Assembly: GCF_016406125.1 (NCBI RefSeq)
Contig: NZ_CP066339.1
Span: 806,001 to 870,000 of the forward strand
Length of the DNA stretch: 64,000 nucleotides
Reading direction: 5' to 3'
Source: Alicyclobacillus sp. SO9
GTDB taxonomy: Bacteria; Bacillota; Bacilli; Alicyclobacillales; Alicyclobacillaceae
The notes under the pieces were generated by a model that saw nothing but the letters and a program-made list of their open reading frames with translations, was not told where the DNA came from and did no database searches. Within the stretch, counting starts at the first letter, position 1; every line of letters begins with the position of its first letter. The translations under genes and the position numbers were made by a program. Below, one piece after another: positions 2,236-11,941 of the stretch.

Positions 2236-3855
2236 TTAACCTCCAATGGATAGTTGAACAATCTTTACGACAAGCATAATGACTGCTATCACCAGATAAC
2301 CACGAAGGGTCGCCATGGCGAGCTTTTGTGTCGGAGACCATATTACCTTCGGCAGTTTGCCAAGCGGAGGCATTCGCCAAGTGTGCCGGTCTTCTTCTCC
2401 GTACATCGGTTTGACTGGTGAACGCCTCCGATACCATACTAGGCCAGCTGCCACAAGCCCAACGAATAGTACGCCAGCTGAAACAAGGCTTAATACCTGG
2501 ACGTTGACACTCGGAAAGAACGTTGCAATGGCTAAAATCAACGAAAGTACAACCAACACACCGACAATTACACTACCGATGATATTCAACCACGGACGAT
2601 TAACCCAAGGTCCTAAAACAGCTTTGTCATTGCACAGAAGTAACAAAAACACGGTCGCGCTTGGGAGCAGAATGCCTGCCAAAGCTTGTACTCCAGTTGT
2701 GATAAGCCCAAGCGGAGCATGTGGGATGACGACGATGCCAGCGGAAACCAAAATGATGATGCCGTACACCACGTAAAAGCTCCAGCCTTCCTTGATGTTC
2801 CGGTGCAATGAATGTTTTGTACCAAACACATCACCAAACGCATACGAAGTCGATAGGGTAACTGCCGCAGCGCCAATCAAGGATGCATTCAGCAAAATGA
2901 TTGCAAACAAATCACCGGCCACCACTCCAACATGCAGCGACAATCCAGCAATCACAGTGCCGGCATTCACAAATTGTCCAGCCAGGGTGGTTCCCTGGAA
3001 TGCAAATGCAGTCGTTACGATGAGTGCAGTTGCTGCAACCACCACAACAACAGAACCAATTACTGTATCGAACCGCTCATAAGACAACCACCGGGGTGTC
3101 AGCCTCTTGTCGATCACGTTTGATTGCTGAAAAAACAACTGCCACGGTGCCACTGTCGTCCCCACCATACCAATGATGAGAAGCAGTGCGTCCGAGGTGA
3201 ACCCACCATGCACTCCCGGTTGCAAAAAACCTGTAACTACTGGGCGAGCAGTTGGATGGGTCATGAGTACAAGAGGTATGACCAGAAAATTGGCGATAAC
3301 CATCACATACATAAATCGCTCCCAGCGGCGAAAACTACCGGTAGCCGTCATGCCAATGAGTAAAATGGATGCAAGTGCAACTGAAACCCAAGGCTTAACG
3401 CCGAAATGGGACATCGCCATTCGGATACCGATAAATTCTGTAACAATGGTGAGGACGTTCAGGATGAACAAGTCACCAACTGAGAAGGCTCCCCAGAACT
3501 TCCCGAACCGCTCAAAAATCAACCTGGCATGGCCAACTCCAGTTACTAGACCAAGACGAACCACCATTTCTTGATTCACAATCAGCACCGGTACCAGAAG
3601 CAGTAACACCCAGAGAAGGCTTGTGCCAAAGTTTTGCCCTGCTTGAGCGTAGGTCGCCACGCCGCCTGCGTCATTGTCACCAACCATCACGATGAGTCCA
3701 GGACCCATGATGGCGAGCAGGGTCAGTATACGGGACCGCCAGCTCTTACGAGTTACATTATCGTCAACACGCACTGTACCAAGTGCGCCTTTGATGTCAC
3801 CAATATGCTGGCTGTCCAGTATAGCCGTGTCTTGAATTGCCAAATTTGTGCGCAT
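2236..3855 (-). CDS. NRAMP-related transporter, probable Mg2+ type (NRMT-like), 539 aa
   Basis: This is a multi-spanning NRAMP-fold transporter in the cytoplasmic membrane. Canonical Mn/Fe members carry DPGN in helix 1 and a metal-binding Met (MPH) in helix 6. Here the aligned sites read DAGG (in VGDNDAGGVAT) and APW (in GTTVAPWQL). The Asn is thus Gly and the Met is Ala. Loss of that soft ligand is the signature reported for the NRAMP-related magnesium transporters. An M-box Mg2+ riboswitch precedes the gene, which independently points to Mg2+. I chose ATG 3855 because AGGAGG lies 9 bases upstream and the family-like sequence starts after it; an upstream in-frame start at 3927 has no such support. 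Mg2+ as substrate is inferred from the two signals together. Confidence 0.88.
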   Translation of the reverse strand: MRTNLAIQDTAILDSQHIGDIKGALGTVRVDDNVTRKSWRSRILTLLAIMGPGLIVMVGDNDAGGVATYAQAGQNFGTSLLWVLLLLVPVLIVNQEMVVRLGLVTGVGHARLIFERFGKFWGAFSVGDLFILNVLTIVTEFIGIRMAMSHFGVKPWVSVALASILLIGMTATGSFRRWERFMYVMVIANFLVIPLVLMTHPTARPVVTGFLQPGVHGGFTSDALLLIIGMVGTTVAPWQLFFQQSNVIDKRLTPRWLSYERFDTVIGSVVVVVAATALIVTTAFAFQGTTLAGQFVNAGTVIAGLSLHVGVVAGDLFAIILLNASLIGAAAVTLSTSYAFGDVFGTKHSLHRNIKEGWSFYVVYGIIILVSAGIVVIPHAPLGLITTGVQALAGILLPSATVFLLLLCNDKAVLGPWVNRPWLNIIGSVIVGVLVVLSLILAIATFFPSVNVQVLSLVSAGVLFVGLVAAGLVWYRRRSPVKPMYGEEDRHTWRMPPLGKLPKVIWSPTQKLAMATLRGYLVIAVIMLVVKIVQLSIGG

Positions 3856-3990
3856 TGTTTTTAACCTCCTTGAGGGTGTGGTAGGAGGGACAGAAGCCCC
3901 TATAATTGATGACCAAAGCAAACACATTGAATTGTCGCTGATGACTAGGACCTGAATCTACACCTACCACCTCCTTCAAAGAGCAAATGT

Positions 3991-4019
3991 AAAATCCCCT
4001 GGCAATTGCTCAGGGGATT
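3991..4019 (-). terminator. Riboswitch-controlled terminator hairpin
   Basis: On the minus strand AATCCCCTG and CAGGGGATT form a hairpin with a short loop, followed directly by TTTTACATTT. It lies between the M-box aptamer and the transporter start. This is the expected expression platform: high Mg2+ would favour termination. Confidence 0.8.
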
Positions 4020-4057
4020 GGATCTGCACATGCAAAATAAGCAGATGCTCTACATCC

Positions 4058-4206
4058 CCTAGTTGAGCTTTAGCACTATGCAACGTAGAGTTTTCACTCA
4101 GCCACATTAGGTAAAGCCTTAATCCGGCAGTACCTGGTGACCCATTGGCGTCTTTCGACGTTTCCGGGCAGCGGCTTATGTTCACATAGACGCCTCGCCT
4201 AACGAG
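4058..4206 (-). ncRNA. M-box (ykoK) Mg2+ riboswitch aptamer
   Basis: Read on the minus strand, the region contains the conserved M-box blocks in order: GTTAGGCGAGGC at the 5' end, then GCTGCCCGGAAACGTCGAA and AGACGCCAATGGGTCA, and finally AGTGCTAAAGCTC at the 3' side. These match the B. subtilis mgtE leader pattern closely. A terminator follows, then the NRMT-like gene about 200 bases downstream. Mg2+ binding should compact the aptamer and stop transcription. A 69-aa frame across this RNA is a shadow and was not called. Confidence 0.93.
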
Positions 4207-4588
4207 GACCGGTTGTATTCAGTTCATGGTATGTACTTTGGCATACCCTTGTTCTCGGCAAACGCCTGAATGTCCTTGACGTACCGTCGATGATTTTACT
4301 GGCACATTGTACCTCATGTACAGTCGAGATATCAACATAAAAATGCTATTTTGGCGGTTCAATATGGACTTCTAAACGGAACCCTTATTGGTCTGCTCGA
4401 GAGCAACAACCGATGAAATTCAGCGCCTGTATGTGTATGCATAACTTGCATCGAGGGGTCGTCTGACTTACGCCCGCGTAATCCGAATCAGAATTCGGAC
4501 CGATTTCCTTCGCTGCGCATAGTATGACAGTGCTGAAATGTAAGGGAATCATTGTGGTCGTGCGTCCATTATGCAAGGAGGCAATTTA
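4207..4588. other. Divergent intergenic region
   Basis: This stretch separates the M-box leader (leftward) from the ytaF-like gene (rightward) and must hold both promoters. I found no convincing -35/-10 pair on either strand and no ORF with a ribosome site. Confidence 0.5.
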
Positions 4589-5206
4589 ATGTTAATGCTT
4601 CTTTTGTCAGCATTATTGTTCAGTATATCCTCCAATCTTGACAATGTAGTTGTCGGTACTGCTTATGGAATAAAGAAAATCAGGATAGGAATCATTGCAA
4701 ACTTTATCATTGCGGTTGTAACAACAACCGGGACCTTTTTATCGATGTCAGCCGGTTCGTATATTGCAAAATTCATGCCACAATCAGTATCAAATGTTTT
4801 AGGTGCTGCAATTATTGTGGTTGTGGGTATTTATTTTGTCATACAAAGCCTTATAAAACTAATACATAACACCAATGCAAGAGAACTAGCATTAAAAGAT
4901 CTTTCTCATATGGTTGAGTACGCAGAACGCTCAGATGTCGATAAATCGGGTCATATTGATGCGAAAGAAGCGTTTATGTTGGCGTTAGGATTAACATTTA
5001 ACAATTTAGGGACTGGAATCGCTGCAAGTATCACAGGAGTCAATATTTTTCTCACCGTAATCTCAACATTTCTCATAAGTATATTGACAATTATCCTCGG
5101 ATACTCCATTGGTAAAAATGTGTTAGGAAGGTTCTTCGGTAAATATGCCCCATTAATTGCAGGTGTTTTGTTAATTGTACTTGGCTTTATCGAAATGTTT
5201 AATTGA
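4589..5206 (+). CDS. ytaF: YtaF/MntP-family membrane protein, 205 aa
   Basis: The protein has about six hydrophobic helices in two halves. Each half carries the family motif: SSNLDNVVVG near residue 20 and LTFNNLGTG in the second half. The loop between the halves holds SDVDKSGHIDAKEAF, an EF-hand-like segment typical of the sporulation membrane protein YtaF. MntP relatives export Mn2+. The substrate here is not known. ATG 4589 is preceded by AAGGAGG with 7 bases of spacing, which is better than the ATG at 4571 inside the ribosome site. The gene is divergent from the Mg2+-controlled transporter, so metal homeostasis is a plausible shared theme. Confidence 0.75.
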   Translation: MLMLLLSALLFSISSNLDNVVVGTAYGIKKIRIGIIANFIIAVVTTTGTFLSMSAGSYIAKFMPQSVSNVLGAAIIVVVGIYFVIQSLIKLIHNTNARELALKDLSHMVEYAERSDVDKSGHIDAKEAFMLALGLTFNNLGTGIAASITGVNIFLTVISTFLISILTIILGYSIGKNVLGRFFGKYAPLIAGVLLIVLGFIEMFN

Positions 5207-5725: not shown

Positions 5726-5982
5726 ACATATCACCTCACGATGACATCTTATGGAACGGTGACCTAATGCATCAACAGTGGACTACATTGAACTCATGTG
5801 AACAAACAGTGATTGTTGACGATTTACATTAAACAAGGGGATTTAAAGAGATTCCGCAAGGGATTTATTGAATAGTTTTTAAAAACCTTAGAAAACCATG
5901 CATGAAAGCGGATTTACCAACGCGTGTAGTCATTGATGTTTTGTCTAGCGAGATTTAAATTGTGTCCATGACATGTTATATA

Positions 5983-6100
5983 CACGCCTAATCCTGTGTG
6001 GAGCGGAGGAACCATTTTATCGGGGTGAATCCAATTTGGACGGGTGATGATTCTTGCCACCCGAACCCGTCAGCTAACTTCGTCGGCGTTGCAGGAGCGG
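5983..6100 (+). ncRNA. ydaO/yuaA (c-di-AMP) riboswitch
   Basis: Conserved blocks appear in order: CCTAATCCTG, GGAGCGGAGGAACCA, CGGGGTGAATCC, CCGAACCCGTCAGCTAACTTCG and GTTGCAGGAGCGG. The CCGAACCCGTCAGCTAAC block is highly diagnostic. A terminator and the potassium transporter gene follow, the same order as upstream of kimA (ydaO) in B. subtilis. Binding of c-di-AMP, which is high when K+ is plentiful, should turn the gene off. Confidence 0.93.
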
Positions 6101-6106
6101 TTTTTT

Positions 6107-6134
6107 GACCCCTCTGGGGTCGTTTTGTGTTTTT
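6107..6134 (+). terminator. Terminator of the c-di-AMP riboswitch
   Basis: The hairpin GACCCC-TCT-GGGGTC is followed by GTTTTGTGTTTTT. It lies 7 bases after the aptamer and 64 bases before the transporter start, as expected for the expression platform. Confidence 0.85.
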
Positions 6135-6197
6135 AGTTTAAAATGCATCCACAGACCAATAATACCCAAGAAGGAAATGGAGGGAGACATTTTCATC

Positions 6198-8105
6198 ATG
6201 TACAAGCAAGCTCTCTGGATTCATCCAGTTGTCATCTCAATTGCAACTATTGCGCTGGCATTTGCCTTATTCAATTTTGGAAACGTAAAGCGCATACTCG
6301 TCGGTCGTCCGATGAGGACACGGGAACTGTATCAATCCCATACCAAGCTGAACTGGCTCATTGCACTCCCAATTCTCGCTGCCGATTTATACTCATCTGT
6401 GGCGTATGGACCCGAGGCCGGCATCACCGAATTGGAGCCATTGGGCCCAAATGTAAAGTGGATGATTATCCCGATCACAGCATCAACCGTGATCCTGCTC
6501 GCAATTCTAATTACATCGTACATAATGGGTGTCATTGCCTATCCAAATGGTGGTGGTGCCTATGCCATAGGCAAGGACAATTTTAAGAAACCTTTGATAT
6601 CCCTGATTGCGGCAAGTGCATTGCTTGTTGACTATGTACTGACCGTCGCCGTTTCGGTGTCATCCGGCATCCAGACGATGGCTTCTTCGTATCCAATCCT
6701 ATCTGGGCACGAAACTCTGTTGTCGGTGGTTTGTGTGTTCATCATCTTGTTGGTCAACTTACGTGGGGTCTCGGAGTCCTCAAAGGTTTTTGCTTACCCG
6801 ACGATGATCTTCGCAGGATGTATGCTCTTCCTAATTGGGGCTGGATTTGTAGATGAAACTCATCATGGATTTGTCCAACCTGTTACACCACCCTTCGGGA
6901 CGATTCCGCTCGGACTTAGCCTGATGCTTTTGCTTCGAGCATTTAGTTCTGCGTGTTCGGCACTGACTGGTATTGAGACAATATCGAACGGAGTTCCGGT
7001 TTTCAGGGAGGGCAAAACGGGAGCAATTAAAGCTTATGTGGTTCTCGGATTGGTTACAGCATTCACGTTACTTGGATTTGCCTATCAATTGTACGTAAAA
7101 GGAATTTCAGTCAACCCCAACAATACAATGCTCTCTCAGTTAGCTGGGTTGTACTTCGGGCATGGATTGATTTATCAAATCATCATTGTCTTTACTTTTG
7201 TGGTTCTTATTTTGGCCGCCAATTCGACATTTACAGGATTTCCACAGCTTGCAGCTCTAGTAGCGATGGACCGATTTTTGCCACGATCACTCACCATCCG
7301 CGGCGATAAATTGGGATACTCAAACGGTATGGTTGTCCTGGCAGCACTAGCAGCCTTATTGATCGAGCTGTTTCATGCGCAGACGAATGCTCTGATCCCG
7401 CTTTATGCAATCGGTGTATTTGTCGCGTTTACAGTCGCTCAGTCTGGCTTGACCATCAGATGGCTTCGTGTGAAAGGGAATTTATGGTACATCAAAGCAA
7501 CCATTAACGCCTTTGGCGCCGCGGTTACAACTGTGGTCGCCATTATTTTTGCCGTAACCAAGTTCACGACTGGGGCTTGGATTGTGCTGGTTGTACTACC
7601 GGTCTTGATATTTTTGGCGTCCAAGATTCGACGGCATTACGACGAAGTTGCAAATGAACTTCGAATCGATCTTAATCAGGTTCATCCTCAAAAACATCAT
7701 GTTCTGTCAGTTGTTCTTGTTTCAGGAGTCCATCGTGTGGTCGTTGATACCATTTCGTTTGCTCAAAGTACAACTCAAGACGTTATTGCGCTATACATTG
7801 GGTTTGATGATGAATCCATTGAAAAGATGGAGAAGAAATGGAAGGAATGGGGAGAACCCTGCAGACTTGTCACTGTCAAAAGTGAATACCGCTCTCTGCT
7901 CTATCCTTTGTCAAAGTTTATTCGGCGGTTGGAAAATTATGAGGGAGGGAAACCCGACCATGTACAGTTGCTCATCGGTCAGTTTGTCCCCAAAAGATGG
8001 TGGCATTATGCATTACATTCGCAGACTTCGCTTCTTCTCCGTGCCTGGATGTTGCGTCACAAGGAGGTTGTTGTTACGACTTTACCGTATCATTTACACC
8101 GCTAG
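6198..8105 (+). CDS. kimA: KimA-type high-affinity K+ importer, 635 aa
   Basis: This is an APC-superfamily permease with about 12 transmembrane helices, followed by a cytoplasmic domain of about 150 residues from near residue 490. Helix 1 carries LAADLYSSVAYGPE and helix 3 YPNGGGAYAIG, as in KimA. The family imports K+ with protons and is inhibited by c-di-AMP. The riboswitch upstream supports this at RNA level. ATG 6198 follows GGAGGGAG; earlier in-frame starts lie inside the terminator or too close to a ribosome site. Length is close to B. subtilis KimA. Confidence 0.92.
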   Translation: MYKQALWIHPVVISIATIALAFALFNFGNVKRILVGRPMRTRELYQSHTKLNWLIALPILAADLYSSVAYGPEAGITELEPLGPNVKWMIIPITASTVILLAILITSYIMGVIAYPNGGGAYAIGKDNFKKPLISLIAASALLVDYVLTVAVSVSSGIQTMASSYPILSGHETLLSVVCVFIILLVNLRGVSESSKVFAYPTMIFAGCMLFLIGAGFVDETHHGFVQPVTPPFGTIPLGLSLMLLLRAFSSACSALTGIETISNGVPVFREGKTGAIKAYVVLGLVTAFTLLGFAYQLYVKGISVNPNNTMLSQLAGLYFGHGLIYQIIIVFTFVVLILAANSTFTGFPQLAALVAMDRFLPRSLTIRGDKLGYSNGMVVLAALAALLIELFHAQTNALIPLYAIGVFVAFTVAQSGLTIRWLRVKGNLWYIKATINAFGAAVTTVVAIIFAVTKFTTGAWIVLVVLPVLIFLASKIRRHYDEVANELRIDLNQVHPQKHHVLSVVLVSGVHRVVVDTISFAQSTTQDVIALYIGFDDESIEKMEKKWKEWGEPCRLVTVKSEYRSLLYPLSKFIRRLENYEGGKPDHVQLLIGQFVPKRWWHYALHSQTSLLLRAWMLRHKEVVVTTLPYHLHR

Positions 8106-8968: not shown

Positions 8969-11941
8969 ATGTATACCCGTGTCAGAGAGCTGCTAACCCC
9001 AGAAGAACGATTGAAATACATGGAGATTCCGAACGACATTGATGAATGGACGTTAGGGACACGCTTCACATTTACGTCGCATGATATCGAAGTGATTCAA
9101 CGTCACCGCAGAGACTACAACCGTCTCGGGTTTGCCGTACAGTTGTGTGTACTGCGGTATCTGGGTTGGACACTTTCCGATGTGCGGAACATACCTGAAC
9201 GAGCCCTCAGCTATGTCGCCAAGCAGATTCGCGTAAATGCGTCCGAATTCCAAACTTACTTTCAAAGAGAGGCAACGAGATATGAACATTTAGAAGAAAT
9301 TCGTCGGGAGTATGGATTCTCCACCTTCACACCCAGCGAATATCGTTGGCTCTCGAAACTGTTGACGGAACATGCGATGGTCAACGGCAGCCCGTTGCAT
9401 CTCATTCAAATTGGTTTAGATGAGCTGCGTAAGCGCAAAGTGATCTTGCCTGCGATGGCAACCATCGAAAGGGCCGTATGGGAAGCACGGAAACGAACAG
9501 AGGATAGGATTTTCAAGGTACTCAGCGCTTCATTGACAGACAGTCAAATGCTTAGTTTGGATGGCTTACTATCCCTGGTGCCTGGTACCAATAAAACGTA
9601 TTTGGCTTGGTTACAGGAGGTCCCTGGCCAGTCCTCTCCGGATACGTTTCTAAAGGTTGTCGACAAACTTGAGTATGTCCGAGCACTGAAGCTCCAAGTA
9701 GATACCCAGGGGATCCATCCAAACCGGCTACGACAATTATCTAAAATTGGCTCGCGGTACGAGCCGCGATCATTCCGTCGATTCAATGACCCCAAGAAAT
9801 ACGCTATACTCGCGGCTTACCTACTTGATTTGATTCAAGACCTGACCGATCAAGCATTTGAAATACACGACAGGCAGATTATGTCTCTGTTATCAAAGGG
9901 AAGAAAGGCACAGGAGGAAGTTCAGAAACATAACGGAAAGTCCATCAACGAAAAGGTCGTTCATTTTGCCAGTTTAGGGGATGCACTGATAAAGGCTCGT
10001 AACGAAGGAGTCGACCCGTTTGTCGCGCTAGAAGCCGTTATGCCGTGGGACAAGCTGGTTGCTTCCGTGGAGGAGGCAAAAAGCCTTGCACGACCGGTTG
10101 ATTACGATTACTTAGACTTGCTGGAGAAGAAGTTCTACTCACTTCGGAAGTACACACCAACGTTGCTGAAGTCCCTAGAATTCCGCTCAACCAGGTCTGC
10201 GGAATCCCTGATGAGAGCGGTTGACATCATCCGCGACATGAACGAATCCGGAAAACGCAAAGTACCGGAAGACGCACCCCTTGAATTTGTGTCGAATCGC
10301 TGGCAAAAGCATGTCTATGACGATGATGGAACCATTAACCGTCATTATTATGAGATGGCGGTTCTTACCGAACTGCGAAACTATGTCCGTTCCGGGGATG
10401 TATCCATTGTTGGGAGCCGACAACACAAGGACTTCGATGAGTATCTGGTCTCTACGGAAGATTGGGCAAGGCTTGAGCCAACTCAGGCTCGGTTTGCGGT
10501 GAGTATATCCGCCAATGAGTATCTGGAAGAGCGTATGGAATCATTGTCAAAACGCTTAGAATGGGTATCGTCTAACATCGAGGGGCTGGAAGGTGTAGAC
10601 CTGGAGCACGGAACACTGCACATAGATCGGTTGGAAAAGGACGTACCTGATGAAGCAAGAGAGTTTAGCTTATCACTCTACGAATTGCTACCTCGCGTCA
10701 AACTAACGGATTTACTGATTGAAGTAGCTCAATGGACCGGATTTCACGAACAGTTTGTTCATGCTTCCACCAACCGTATGCCGAACGAAGAGGAAACCAC
10801 TGTAGTGATGGCCACCCTTATGGCGATGGGAACAAACGTAGGCCTTACAAAGATGGCTGAATCTACACCAGGTATTTCGTATCGGCAGATGGCAAATGTA
10901 GCACAATGGCGGCTCTACGAGGATGCGATGAATAAAGCTCAAGCTGTACTGGTGAATTTTCATCACCGCTTAGCCCTACCGTCCTATTGGGGCGATGGAA
11001 CCACGTCGTCATCAGATGGCATGCGCGTACCGATAGGAGTATCTGCACTACACGCAGATGCCAACCCTCATTACGGCCATGGTAAGGGAGCGACCATTTA
11101 CCGCTTTGTCAGCGACCAGTTTTCAAGTTTTTACACCAAGGTGATTAACACAAACGCAAGGGACGCGGTGCATGTCATTGATGGGCTGTTACACCATGAA
11201 ACGGATTTGGCTATTGAAGAACACTACACGGATACAGCCGGTTACACGGACCAGGTTTTTGGTTTGACGCACCTGCTTGGATTTCATTTTGCACCTCGCT
11301 TACGTGATTTATCGGATTCCAAGCTCTTCTCCTTTGGTAAAGCAGCTGATTTCCCCAAACTTGAGAAGCTGCTGCGTGGTCAAATCAATACAAAAGTCAT
11401 TCGGGAGAATTACGACGATGTATTGAGATTAGCGTATTCGATTCGGGAGGGCACCGTCTCTGCTTCGCTCATCATGGGGAAGCTCGGATCCTACGCACGG
11501 CAGAATCGCTTGGCCACGGCGCTTCGGGAAATGGGTCGGATAGAAAAGACGATCTTCATTTTGGACTACATTTCGAGCGAAGCCCTACGAAGGAAAATCA
11601 ATCGTGGATTGAATAAAGGCGAGGCGATGAACGCTATAGCCAGAGCGATATTCTTTGGCAAGCGTGGAGAACTGCGCGAACGTGCACTCCAAGACCAACT
11701 CCAACGGGCTAGTGCGCTCAATATTCTAATCAATGCGATCAGCGTGTGGAATACGGTTTACTTGACCAAAGCAATGGAATTCAAAAAGGCACAAGGTGGT
11801 CTCCGGGAGGAACTATTGCATCATATTTCCCCACTAGGCTGGGAACACATTAATTTCTTAGGCGAATACACATTCAACGTAAGTCAACCAAGAGATCTGG
11901 ACTCACTGCGTCCGCTTCGTGTTCAAGCAGCAGCACCTTAG
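8969..11941 (+). CDS. tnpA: Tn3-family transposase TnpA, 990 aa, intact
   Basis: This is a full-length Tn3-type transposase that pastes the element by replicative transposition. An N-terminal DUF4158-type region (about 1-170) precedes long helical segments. The C-terminal DDE domain runs from about 560, with D in SSDGMRV, D in TDTAGYTDQ and E in REMGRIEKT. ATG 8969 follows AGGGGCG. The gene reads towards the 38-bp right terminal repeat, 37 bp after the stop. Nothing suggests inactivation. Confidence 0.97.
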   Translation: MYTRVRELLTPEERLKYMEIPNDIDEWTLGTRFTFTSHDIEVIQRHRRDYNRLGFAVQLCVLRYLGWTLSDVRNIPERALSYVAKQIRVNASEFQTYFQREATRYEHLEEIRREYGFSTFTPSEYRWLSKLLTEHAMVNGSPLHLIQIGLDELRKRKVILPAMATIERAVWEARKRTEDRIFKVLSASLTDSQMLSLDGLLSLVPGTNKTYLAWLQEVPGQSSPDTFLKVVDKLEYVRALKLQVDTQGIHPNRLRQLSKIGSRYEPRSFRRFNDPKKYAILAAYLLDLIQDLTDQAFEIHDRQIMSLLSKGRKAQEEVQKHNGKSINEKVVHFASLGDALIKARNEGVDPFVALEAVMPWDKLVASVEEAKSLARPVDYDYLDLLEKKFYSLRKYTPTLLKSLEFRSTRSAESLMRAVDIIRDMNESGKRKVPEDAPLEFVSNRWQKHVYDDDGTINRHYYEMAVLTELRNYVRSGDVSIVGSRQHKDFDEYLVSTEDWARLEPTQARFAVSISANEYLEERMESLSKRLEWVSSNIEGLEGVDLEHGTLHIDRLEKDVPDEAREFSLSLYELLPRVKLTDLLIEVAQWTGFHEQFVHASTNRMPNEEETTVVMATLMAMGTNVGLTKMAESTPGISYRQMANVAQWRLYEDAMNKAQAVLVNFHHRLALPSYWGDGTTSSSDGMRVPIGVSALHADANPHYGHGKGATIYRFVSDQFSSFYTKVINTNARDAVHVIDGLLHHETDLAIEEHYTDTAGYTDQVFGLTHLLGFHFAPRLRDLSDSKLFSFGKAADFPKLEKLLRGQINTKVIRENYDDVLRLAYSIREGTVSASLIMGKLGSYARQNRLATALREMGRIEKTIFILDYISSEALRRKINRGLNKGEAMNAIARAIFFGKRGELRERALQDQLQRASALNILINAISVWNTVYLTKAMEFKKAQGGLREELLHHISPLGWEHINFLGEYTFNVSQPRDLDSLRPLRVQAAAP

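Follow-up and report, generated by a model that had tools for sequence, protein, structure and literature searches.

A conserved leader reading frame behind the M-box riboswitch of a putative NRAMP-related magnesium importer in Alicyclobacillus sp. SO9

The nrmT locus and its surroundings

The window, that is the whole stretch of DNA analysed, comprises 64,000 nucleotides of the Alicyclobacillus sp. SO9 genome. Close to its beginning a gene for an NRAMP-related transporter, nrmT, lies on the minus strand. Read along that strand, the order is M-box riboswitch (4213-4050), terminator (4019-3993), leader open reading frame (ORF, 3961-3797) and nrmT (3855-2236). The individual features are listed here with the evidence for each.

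4306..4335, minus strand: candidate sigma-A promoter, TTGATA - 18 - TACAAT (consensus match alone, 10/12)
4050..4213, minus strand: M-box (Mg2+) riboswitch aptamer (RF00380 match, 144 bits, E 1.4e-32)
4053..4062, minus strand: P1 3′ strand CTAGGGGATG, doubling as the predicted antiterminator strand (sequence complementarity)
3993..4019, minus strand: intrinsic terminator hairpin, then TTTT (MFE -17.4 kcal/mol, z -4.8)
3970..3976, minus strand: leader-ORF Shine-Dalgarno sequence AAGGAGG, SD1 (conserved in all Alicyclobacillaceae leaders)
3797..3961, minus strand: leader ORF frame, 54 codons, (V)DSGPSHQRQF... (leader comparison; overlaps the nrmT start out of frame)
3865..3871, minus strand: nrmT Shine-Dalgarno sequence AAGGAGG, SD2 (sequence)
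2236..3855, minus strand: nrmT, long-form (539 residues) NRAMP-related Mg2+ transporter (Pfam, structure, tree)

Matches to the promoter consensus are about equally frequent in shuffled sequences, and the promoter is listed as a candidate only. An earlier note on this DNA had placed the locus at 2236-4206; the position holds, with the M-box now reaching 4213 and the gene most likely starting at 3855 instead of 3927. The conserved leader ORF (3961-3797) was missing from that note. The start of nrmT is most likely the ATG at 3855. A longer reading frame from 3927 was considered and ruled out: ATG 3855 sits behind a perfect Shine-Dalgarno sequence and the relatives align from there.

No gene for an MgtE N-terminal-like protein adjoins nrmT, whose neighbours are ytaF and a kimA-like gene; in the NrmT neighbourhoods of Shin et al. 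2014 such a gene is frequent without being a fixed feature. In three relatives (L089, L091, L099) an ORF lies between the M-box and a short NRMT gene. The ytaF/MntP-like gene (4571-5206) sits between nrmT and a c-di-AMP riboswitch (5975-6104, plus strand, 92.8 bits), which precedes the gene for the KimA-like K+ transporter (6105-8105, plus strand). Together the nrmT, ytaF/MntP-like and KimA-like genes form an ion-transport cluster between Tn3 transposases. The flanking Tn3-family transposase genes are at 14-1695 and 8969-11941, the first being broken into several ORFs. Genes for a tyrosine recombinase and of spore-germination type are found upstream of the window, in the area of the repeat (L011) described below.

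The genome (5.29 Mb, two contigs) contains two M-boxes, both on nrmT, and two CorA genes; no MgtE was found in the whole genome. Of the two M-box-nrmT copies, the one carried by the 90-kb contig C2 is frameshifted, and C2 (L012) holds two broken nrmT copies. A 1.6-kb piece of nrmT is also directly repeated on the chromosome, 10.5 kb away (C1:797264-798861, L011). This repeat lies near a Tn3 transposase and germination-type genes. C2 shares about 22.5 kb with the chromosome, and a shared stretch of 20.8 kb shows 41 gaps and only 2 mismatches. Such differences, mostly single gaps, suggest long-read indel sequencing errors; because they have this character, the second copy on C2 is no proof of a plasmid copy. 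A 99.4% identical M-box-nrmT unit is found twice in A. curvatus, in the plasmid record CP071185 (L085) and in the chromosome (L086), which show a similar overlap, 100% identical over 9,551 bp. Our genome set places A. curvatus in a different genus, and on this sequence comparison the M-box-nrmT unit therefore looks mobile. The A. curvatus plasmid additionally bears cation-transporter genes.

The transporter

NrmT matches the Pfam Nramp family (E 3e-73 for the 539-residue protein) and falls far under the NCBIfam cut-offs, scoring 108.8 bits against 430 for MntH and 49.9 against 272.5 for Nramp. By sequence the best solved relative is EleNRMT (7qia, E 3e-56), to which NrmT is 33% identical in one alignment. 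The other close NRAMP matches are weaker (1e-13 to 1e-8, and 8e-20 for BfraNramp). The AlphaFold2 model of NrmT has a pLDDT of 87; its first fold match is again EleNRMT (TM 0.86 by target length, E 7e-18), followed by Mn NRAMPs. A maximum-likelihood tree places NrmT with EleNRMT and other NRMTs at a fork supported 100/100, and the two MntH proteins of the genome itself stand apart from the NRMT clade.

The metal site of NrmT reads DNDAGG in helix 1 and GTTVAPW in helix 6, which corresponds to the DxxG ... TxxA signature given, with an NRMT structure, by Ramanadane et al. 2022 (PMC8806188). Trp and Gln occupy the positions of the two helix-6 His residues that serve as proton acceptors, and Glu140 of helix 3 is retained. 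The site motifs are invariant across 80 relatives, save for Gly/Ala at the last motif position. The DAGG and APW on which the earlier note had remarked are thus both present and are diagnostic residues; the motif is properly DxxG ... TxxA, with the Thr (first T of GTTVAPW) also diagnostic. The note had further pointed to the Eggerthella NRMT for alignment; all of the residues that define the site are present in NrmT.

In the AlphaFold2 model NrmT consists of the NRAMP core and two extra C-terminal helices, residues 452-477 and 508-538. This long form also occurs in Actinomycetota, Chloroflexota, Dormibacterota and Pseudomonadota at 52-64% identity. Among 20 long-form loci scanned, an M-box was found at only three Alicyclobacillus loci and in one MAG (L125).

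We note two variants of the metal site. An NRMT-like paralogue (L006, C1:4241959-4242972) has a hybrid site, DTDAGS / AVIMPW, in which Met is kept, Trp replaces His, and Ser is found where Gly/Asn stood. A third NRMT-like subgroup, type C (L064, G032), has DNDAGG but GNAIAPW, with Asn for the metal-site Thr. The type C genes adjoin type B genes, and the M-box leader is ahead of the type B gene only.

The M-box and its expression platform

The M-box was originally discovered upstream of B. subtilis mgtE. In the window the match to the RF00380 covariance model is full length (positions 1-169) and its 144 bits compare with a gathering score of 44. When 41 nucleotides comprising the terminator were folded, none of 200 shuffled sequences equalled the energy of -17.4 kcal/mol. 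The sequence AGGGGAT in the P1 3′ strand is an exact 7-nucleotide complement of ATCCCCT, the 5′ arm of the terminator; a 7-bp antiterminator would therefore compete with both P1 and the terminator. Judged by this complementarity, terminator and antiterminator are mutually exclusive, the usual M-box arrangement. The earlier claim of an M-box with terminator on the transporter gene is thus borne out.

Established knowledge of the M-box is the basis for the switching that we propose at the terminator. At high cytosolic Mg2+ the aptamer would fold, P1 would sequester the antiterminator strand and transcription would end at 3993. At low Mg2+ the AGGGGAT strand would open the terminator and nrmT would be made.

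The substrate

The metal-site motif alone is no proof of Mg2+ transport, because EleNRMT also carries Mn2+ (PMC8806188) and the NrmT of A. capsulatum, which has no M-box, behaved as a Mn2+ transporter: it rescued a Mn2+-transport mutant, and its rescue of a Mg2+ mutant was confined to low millimolar concentrations of Mg2+ (PMC4072509). These two proteins lend weight to the view that NrmT is an importer of Mn2+, or of divalent ions in general, which the M-box merely restricts at high Mg2+. The M-box-controlled Nramp-related proteins of C. acetobutylicum behaved otherwise. Their genes, named NrmT by Shin et al. 2014, rescued a B. subtilis Mg2+-transport mutant and failed to rescue a Mn2+-transport mutant (PMC4072509). 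Alicyclobacillus sp. SO9, which lacks MgtE, also encodes MntH separately, in two proteins whose sites read MPH. We therefore consider a Mn2+ or general divalent importer very unlikely.

The M-box is stronger evidence for Mg2+ than the metal-site motif. Taken with EleNRMT as the best match by sequence and by predicted fold and with the position of NrmT in the NRMT clade, it agrees with the NRAMP-fold Mg2+ importer that had been predicted from the sequence, and we hold it very probable that the locus encodes an NRMT Mg2+ importer under M-box control. From its site residues and its clade, NrmT would be expected to resemble EleNRMT in taking up Mg2+ that keeps part of its hydration shell, and in doing so without coupling to protons. 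The combination of M-box and NRMT has already been published (NrmT in 2014, the structure in 2022), so that this reading of transporter and riboswitch is an ordinary one.

A conserved leader reading frame

Between terminator and gene the leaders share a block comprising a Shine-Dalgarno sequence, a start codon and GAY NNN GGY CCT AGT, which encodes (M/V)-D-x-G-P-S. Every one of the 15 checkable M-box leaders of long NRMT genes in the order has the leader ORF. It also occurs ahead of the long-NRMT gene L098, at a locus that has lost, or never had, an M-box. The pattern RTRGAYNNNGGYCCTAGT matches 16 of 121 genomes, all matches but one (G022 C15) being at NRMT leaders. The spacing from leader ORF to nrmT takes seven values between 76 and 130, every one of them 1 mod 3, and the frame crosses the nrmT start. 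The leaders of type B NRMT genes, whose proteins are about 40% identical, contain the same type of ORF; it starts with ATG, GTG or TTG, and its second codon specifies Asp or Glu. M-box leaders of genes that we take to be DUF1003-like (L093, L094, L095), present in some Alicyclobacillaceae, encode the leader peptide MDPEPN; on this sequence evidence the DUF1003-like gene is a candidate new Mg2+-linked gene.

Two other explanations of the block were rejected. It is out of frame with nrmT in every case, which rules out an N-terminal extension of the transporter. Pairing of CCTAGT with the ACTAGG strand of the M-box fits the window and fails in relatives with ACCAGG; we take it as chance.

The window copy differs from its relatives at the start codon. 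At 3961-3959 the window and the C2 copy have GTA, where A. curvatus has GTG and the relatives GTG, ATG or TTG. By sequence, the window copy is probably a natural knockout in which the second gate proposed below has been lost; with GTG changed to GTA, the M-box is probably its only control. As neither of the genome's copies has a start codon for the leader ORF, nrmT is evidently usable without it.

In the long-NRMT leaders a single hairpin is predicted to run from SD1 to SD2 (-37 to -61 kcal/mol, z -0.7 to -6.2), in which the first bases of SD2 pair with CTTT upstream of SD1. Pairs were counted from the Shine-Dalgarno anchors and not from a whole-leader MAFFT alignment, as MAFFT misaligns the 3′ arm of divergent members. 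Counted in this way, 439 of 528 cells are paired in the long-NRMT hairpin, with some compensatory changes; the hairpin signal is weak in other leaders. Some of what is conserved in the leader is nucleotide sequence as such (CCTAGT, GTCGA), and some bases around SD1 and the start codon pair with bases around SD2; RNA structure may therefore account for a share of the conservation.

The same recurrence of CCTAGT and GTCGA, and the pairing of the start region within the hairpin, would be expected were the block an RNA element, in sequence or structure, whose open frame is incidental. Several features speak for translation instead. Start codons vary between ATG, GTG and TTG behind a spaced Shine-Dalgarno sequence, and wobble bases vary; Ser is drawn from both codon families and Pro from all four codons. 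GTCGA shifts by whole codons, and the spacing to nrmT keeps its phase throughout. An RNA element with an incidental frame is in our view very unlikely, and we are highly confident that the leader ORF is genuine, conserved and translated.

A blind survey of Bacillota M-box leaders

M-box leaders were also compared without regard to the encoded peptide: in each leader the ORF start with the strongest Shine-Dalgarno sequence between aptamer and gene was taken, ignoring the encoded residues. Leaders were clustered at 75% identity. A strong-Shine-Dalgarno leader ORF was lacking in 26 of 75 M-box clusters, about a third. Asp or Glu stands at codon 2 in 27 of 34 clusters of the class Bacilli and, with further Bacillota classes added, in a weighted 40.7 (about 41) of 49 clusters phylum-wide. 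Among the remaining candidate starts of these leaders the proportion is 7% (binomial p 2e-37), and of the clusters of control riboswitches 0/8 have Asp or Glu at codon 2 (c-di-AMP 0/6, Mn 0/2; Fisher p 1.5e-5). Being related by descent, the clusters are not entirely independent of one another, and these p values overstate their independence.

Pro accounts for 15.8% of residues 3-8 within the 41 positive clusters and for 1.7% of residues 13-22 (p 2e-6). Further acidic residues are weakly enriched at 3-8 (12.0% vs 7.1%, p 0.047). Pro is encoded by each of its four codons and Ser by codons of both families, the starts include ATG, GTG and TTG, and a T-run separates the aptamer from the leader ORF in 41/41. 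Examples of the peptides are MESDDDYLKK, MESEEGDYY, MDSDGDSSKR, MDADPEPQMD, MDSSPEPNK and MDHPDSRH. The positive clusters include two Bacillus-type MgtE leaders (L230, L239), whose MgtE we presume to be close to that of B. subtilis 168. The signature spans the leaders of mgtE, mgtA, corA, DUF1003-like and nrmT genes, with unrelated sequence downstream, and outside the long-NRMT leaders many leader ORFs end well ahead of the gene.

The existence of the leader ORF and its conservation as a coding frame are demonstrated in the Alicyclobacillaceae lineage and in most sampled Bacillota M-box leaders. By its sequence signature, the leader ORF follows most of the magnesium riboswitches sampled in Bacillota.

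Two further leaders are recorded. A P-type-ATPase-like gene (L101, G058) has an M-box leader ORF, MAMIMREDADDADGW..., with its acidic run away from codon 2. At L240 (G211:C3:349678-350100) a tandem pair of M-boxes lies upstream of a single gene.

A proposed second reading of Mg2+

By analogy with MgtL (EPDP) and MgtQ (Asp2, Glu5), the leader ORF may act as a translational gate. At low Mg2+ ribosomes would leave the leader ORF, or be delayed, at its acidic and Pro-containing beginning, and this would leave open, or open, the Shine-Dalgarno sequence of the transporter. At adequate Mg2+ the ribosome would continue, in the long-NRMT leaders across the nrmT start, and translation of nrmT would stay low. 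Mg2+ would thus be read twice, by RNA in the M-box for transcription and by the ribosome on the leader ORF for translation.

The long-NRMT leaders also suit a simpler scheme, translational coupling alone, in which the initiating ribosome melts the hairpin over the nrmT Shine-Dalgarno sequence and the encoded residues are irrelevant. There the hairpin connects SD1 with SD2 and shows some compensatory changes, and the overlap of the leader ORF with the nrmT start has a fixed phase. Coupling alone gives no reason, however, to expect an acidic codon 2 (Asp/Glu) and a Pro near residue 5 in mgtE, mgtA, corA, DUF1003-like and nrmT leaders whose downstream sequences are unrelated. Beyond the long-NRMT leaders, moreover, there is only a weak hairpin signal, and many of the ORFs stop well short of the gene. 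We regard coupling alone as rather unlikely. A Mg2+-dependent gate is our tentative preference, held at slightly less than an even chance. Its extension to Bacillota at large, Bacillus-type mgtE included, as a two-stage sensor made up of an M-box and a Met-(Asp/Glu)-x-x-Pro ORF, and as a convergent counterpart of MgtL and MgtQ, is possible and a shade more tentative again. The explanation of the locus as a whole, an M-box-controlled NRMT importer with the leader ORF as a second element and a gate proposed for it, we judge probable.

What is new here is the leader ORF, which apparently puts two known kinds of Mg2+ sensor in series, and widely so. Should the majority of Bacillota M-box leaders contain an acidic/Pro ORF, M-box reporters that include the full 5′-UTR may have read two sensors. 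An M-box reporter of free Mg2+ has been used to probe ribosome variants, with the leader ORF unmentioned (PMC11567004); it would be among those concerned. Ribosome destabilisation as a gauge of Mg2+ would then have arisen independently in distant bacteria.

Comparison with known systems

The closest published arrangement is that of the C. acetobutylicum NrmT genes (Ca_c0685, Ca_c3329), where an M-box and an intrinsic terminator likewise lie directly upstream of an Nramp-related gene. The locus described here differs in the 539-residue long form with its two extra C-terminal helices, in the conserved leader ORF and in having no adjacent MgtE-N gene. M-box-controlled NrmTs were found mostly in Clostridia and Deltaproteobacteria (PMC4072509), and a text search of that paper returned no mention of a leader peptide. 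EleNRMT (7qia) shares with NrmT the DxxG and TxxA motifs, the helix-3 Glu and the Trp that replaces the first helix-6 His; at the second His position it has Asn where NrmT has Gln, and it is without the C-terminal extension.

In the M. tuberculosis pe20 leader an M-box is likewise followed by conserved short upstream ORFs (PMC12810186). The expression platform there is translational and involves Rho, the peptide is described as mycobacteria-specific with its role unknown, and a ribosome-destabilising signature is not discussed in the passages concerned. For Bacillota we found no report of an M-box leader peptide in the open-access literature, the mycobacterial case standing alone; subscription papers and preprints lay mostly outside the search.

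Like the leader ORF, Salmonella mgtQ is a short reading frame ahead of a gene for a Mg2+ transporter; its second residue is Asp, and Pro and Glu are close by (Asp2, Pro4, Glu5). Its acidic codons reduce its own translation and raise that of mgtB, whose ribosome-binding site is freed from a stem (PMC8092293). The alternative stems that hide or free that site (PMC8092293) have a possible parallel in the predicted SD1-SD2 hairpin of the long-NRMT leaders. The operon of mgtQ is driven by PhoP, has the order mgtC-mgtQ-mgtB and contains no M-box, whereas the ORF here comes after the M-box terminator and often crosses the gene start. In MgtL, the leader peptide of E. coli and Salmonella mgtA, the N-terminus is likewise acidic and Pro-containing, and MDPEPN is very close to MEPDP. 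Ribosomes fall off at the EPDP of E. coli MgtL at low Mg2+, and the process on which MgtL acts is Rho-dependent transcription termination (PMC11282234); here a riboswitch with an intrinsic terminator acts first. The signature of the MgtL/MgtQ type, a Shine-Dalgarno sequence, an acidic codon 2 and a nearby Pro, is found in full in the relatives and, except for the start codon, in the window frame.
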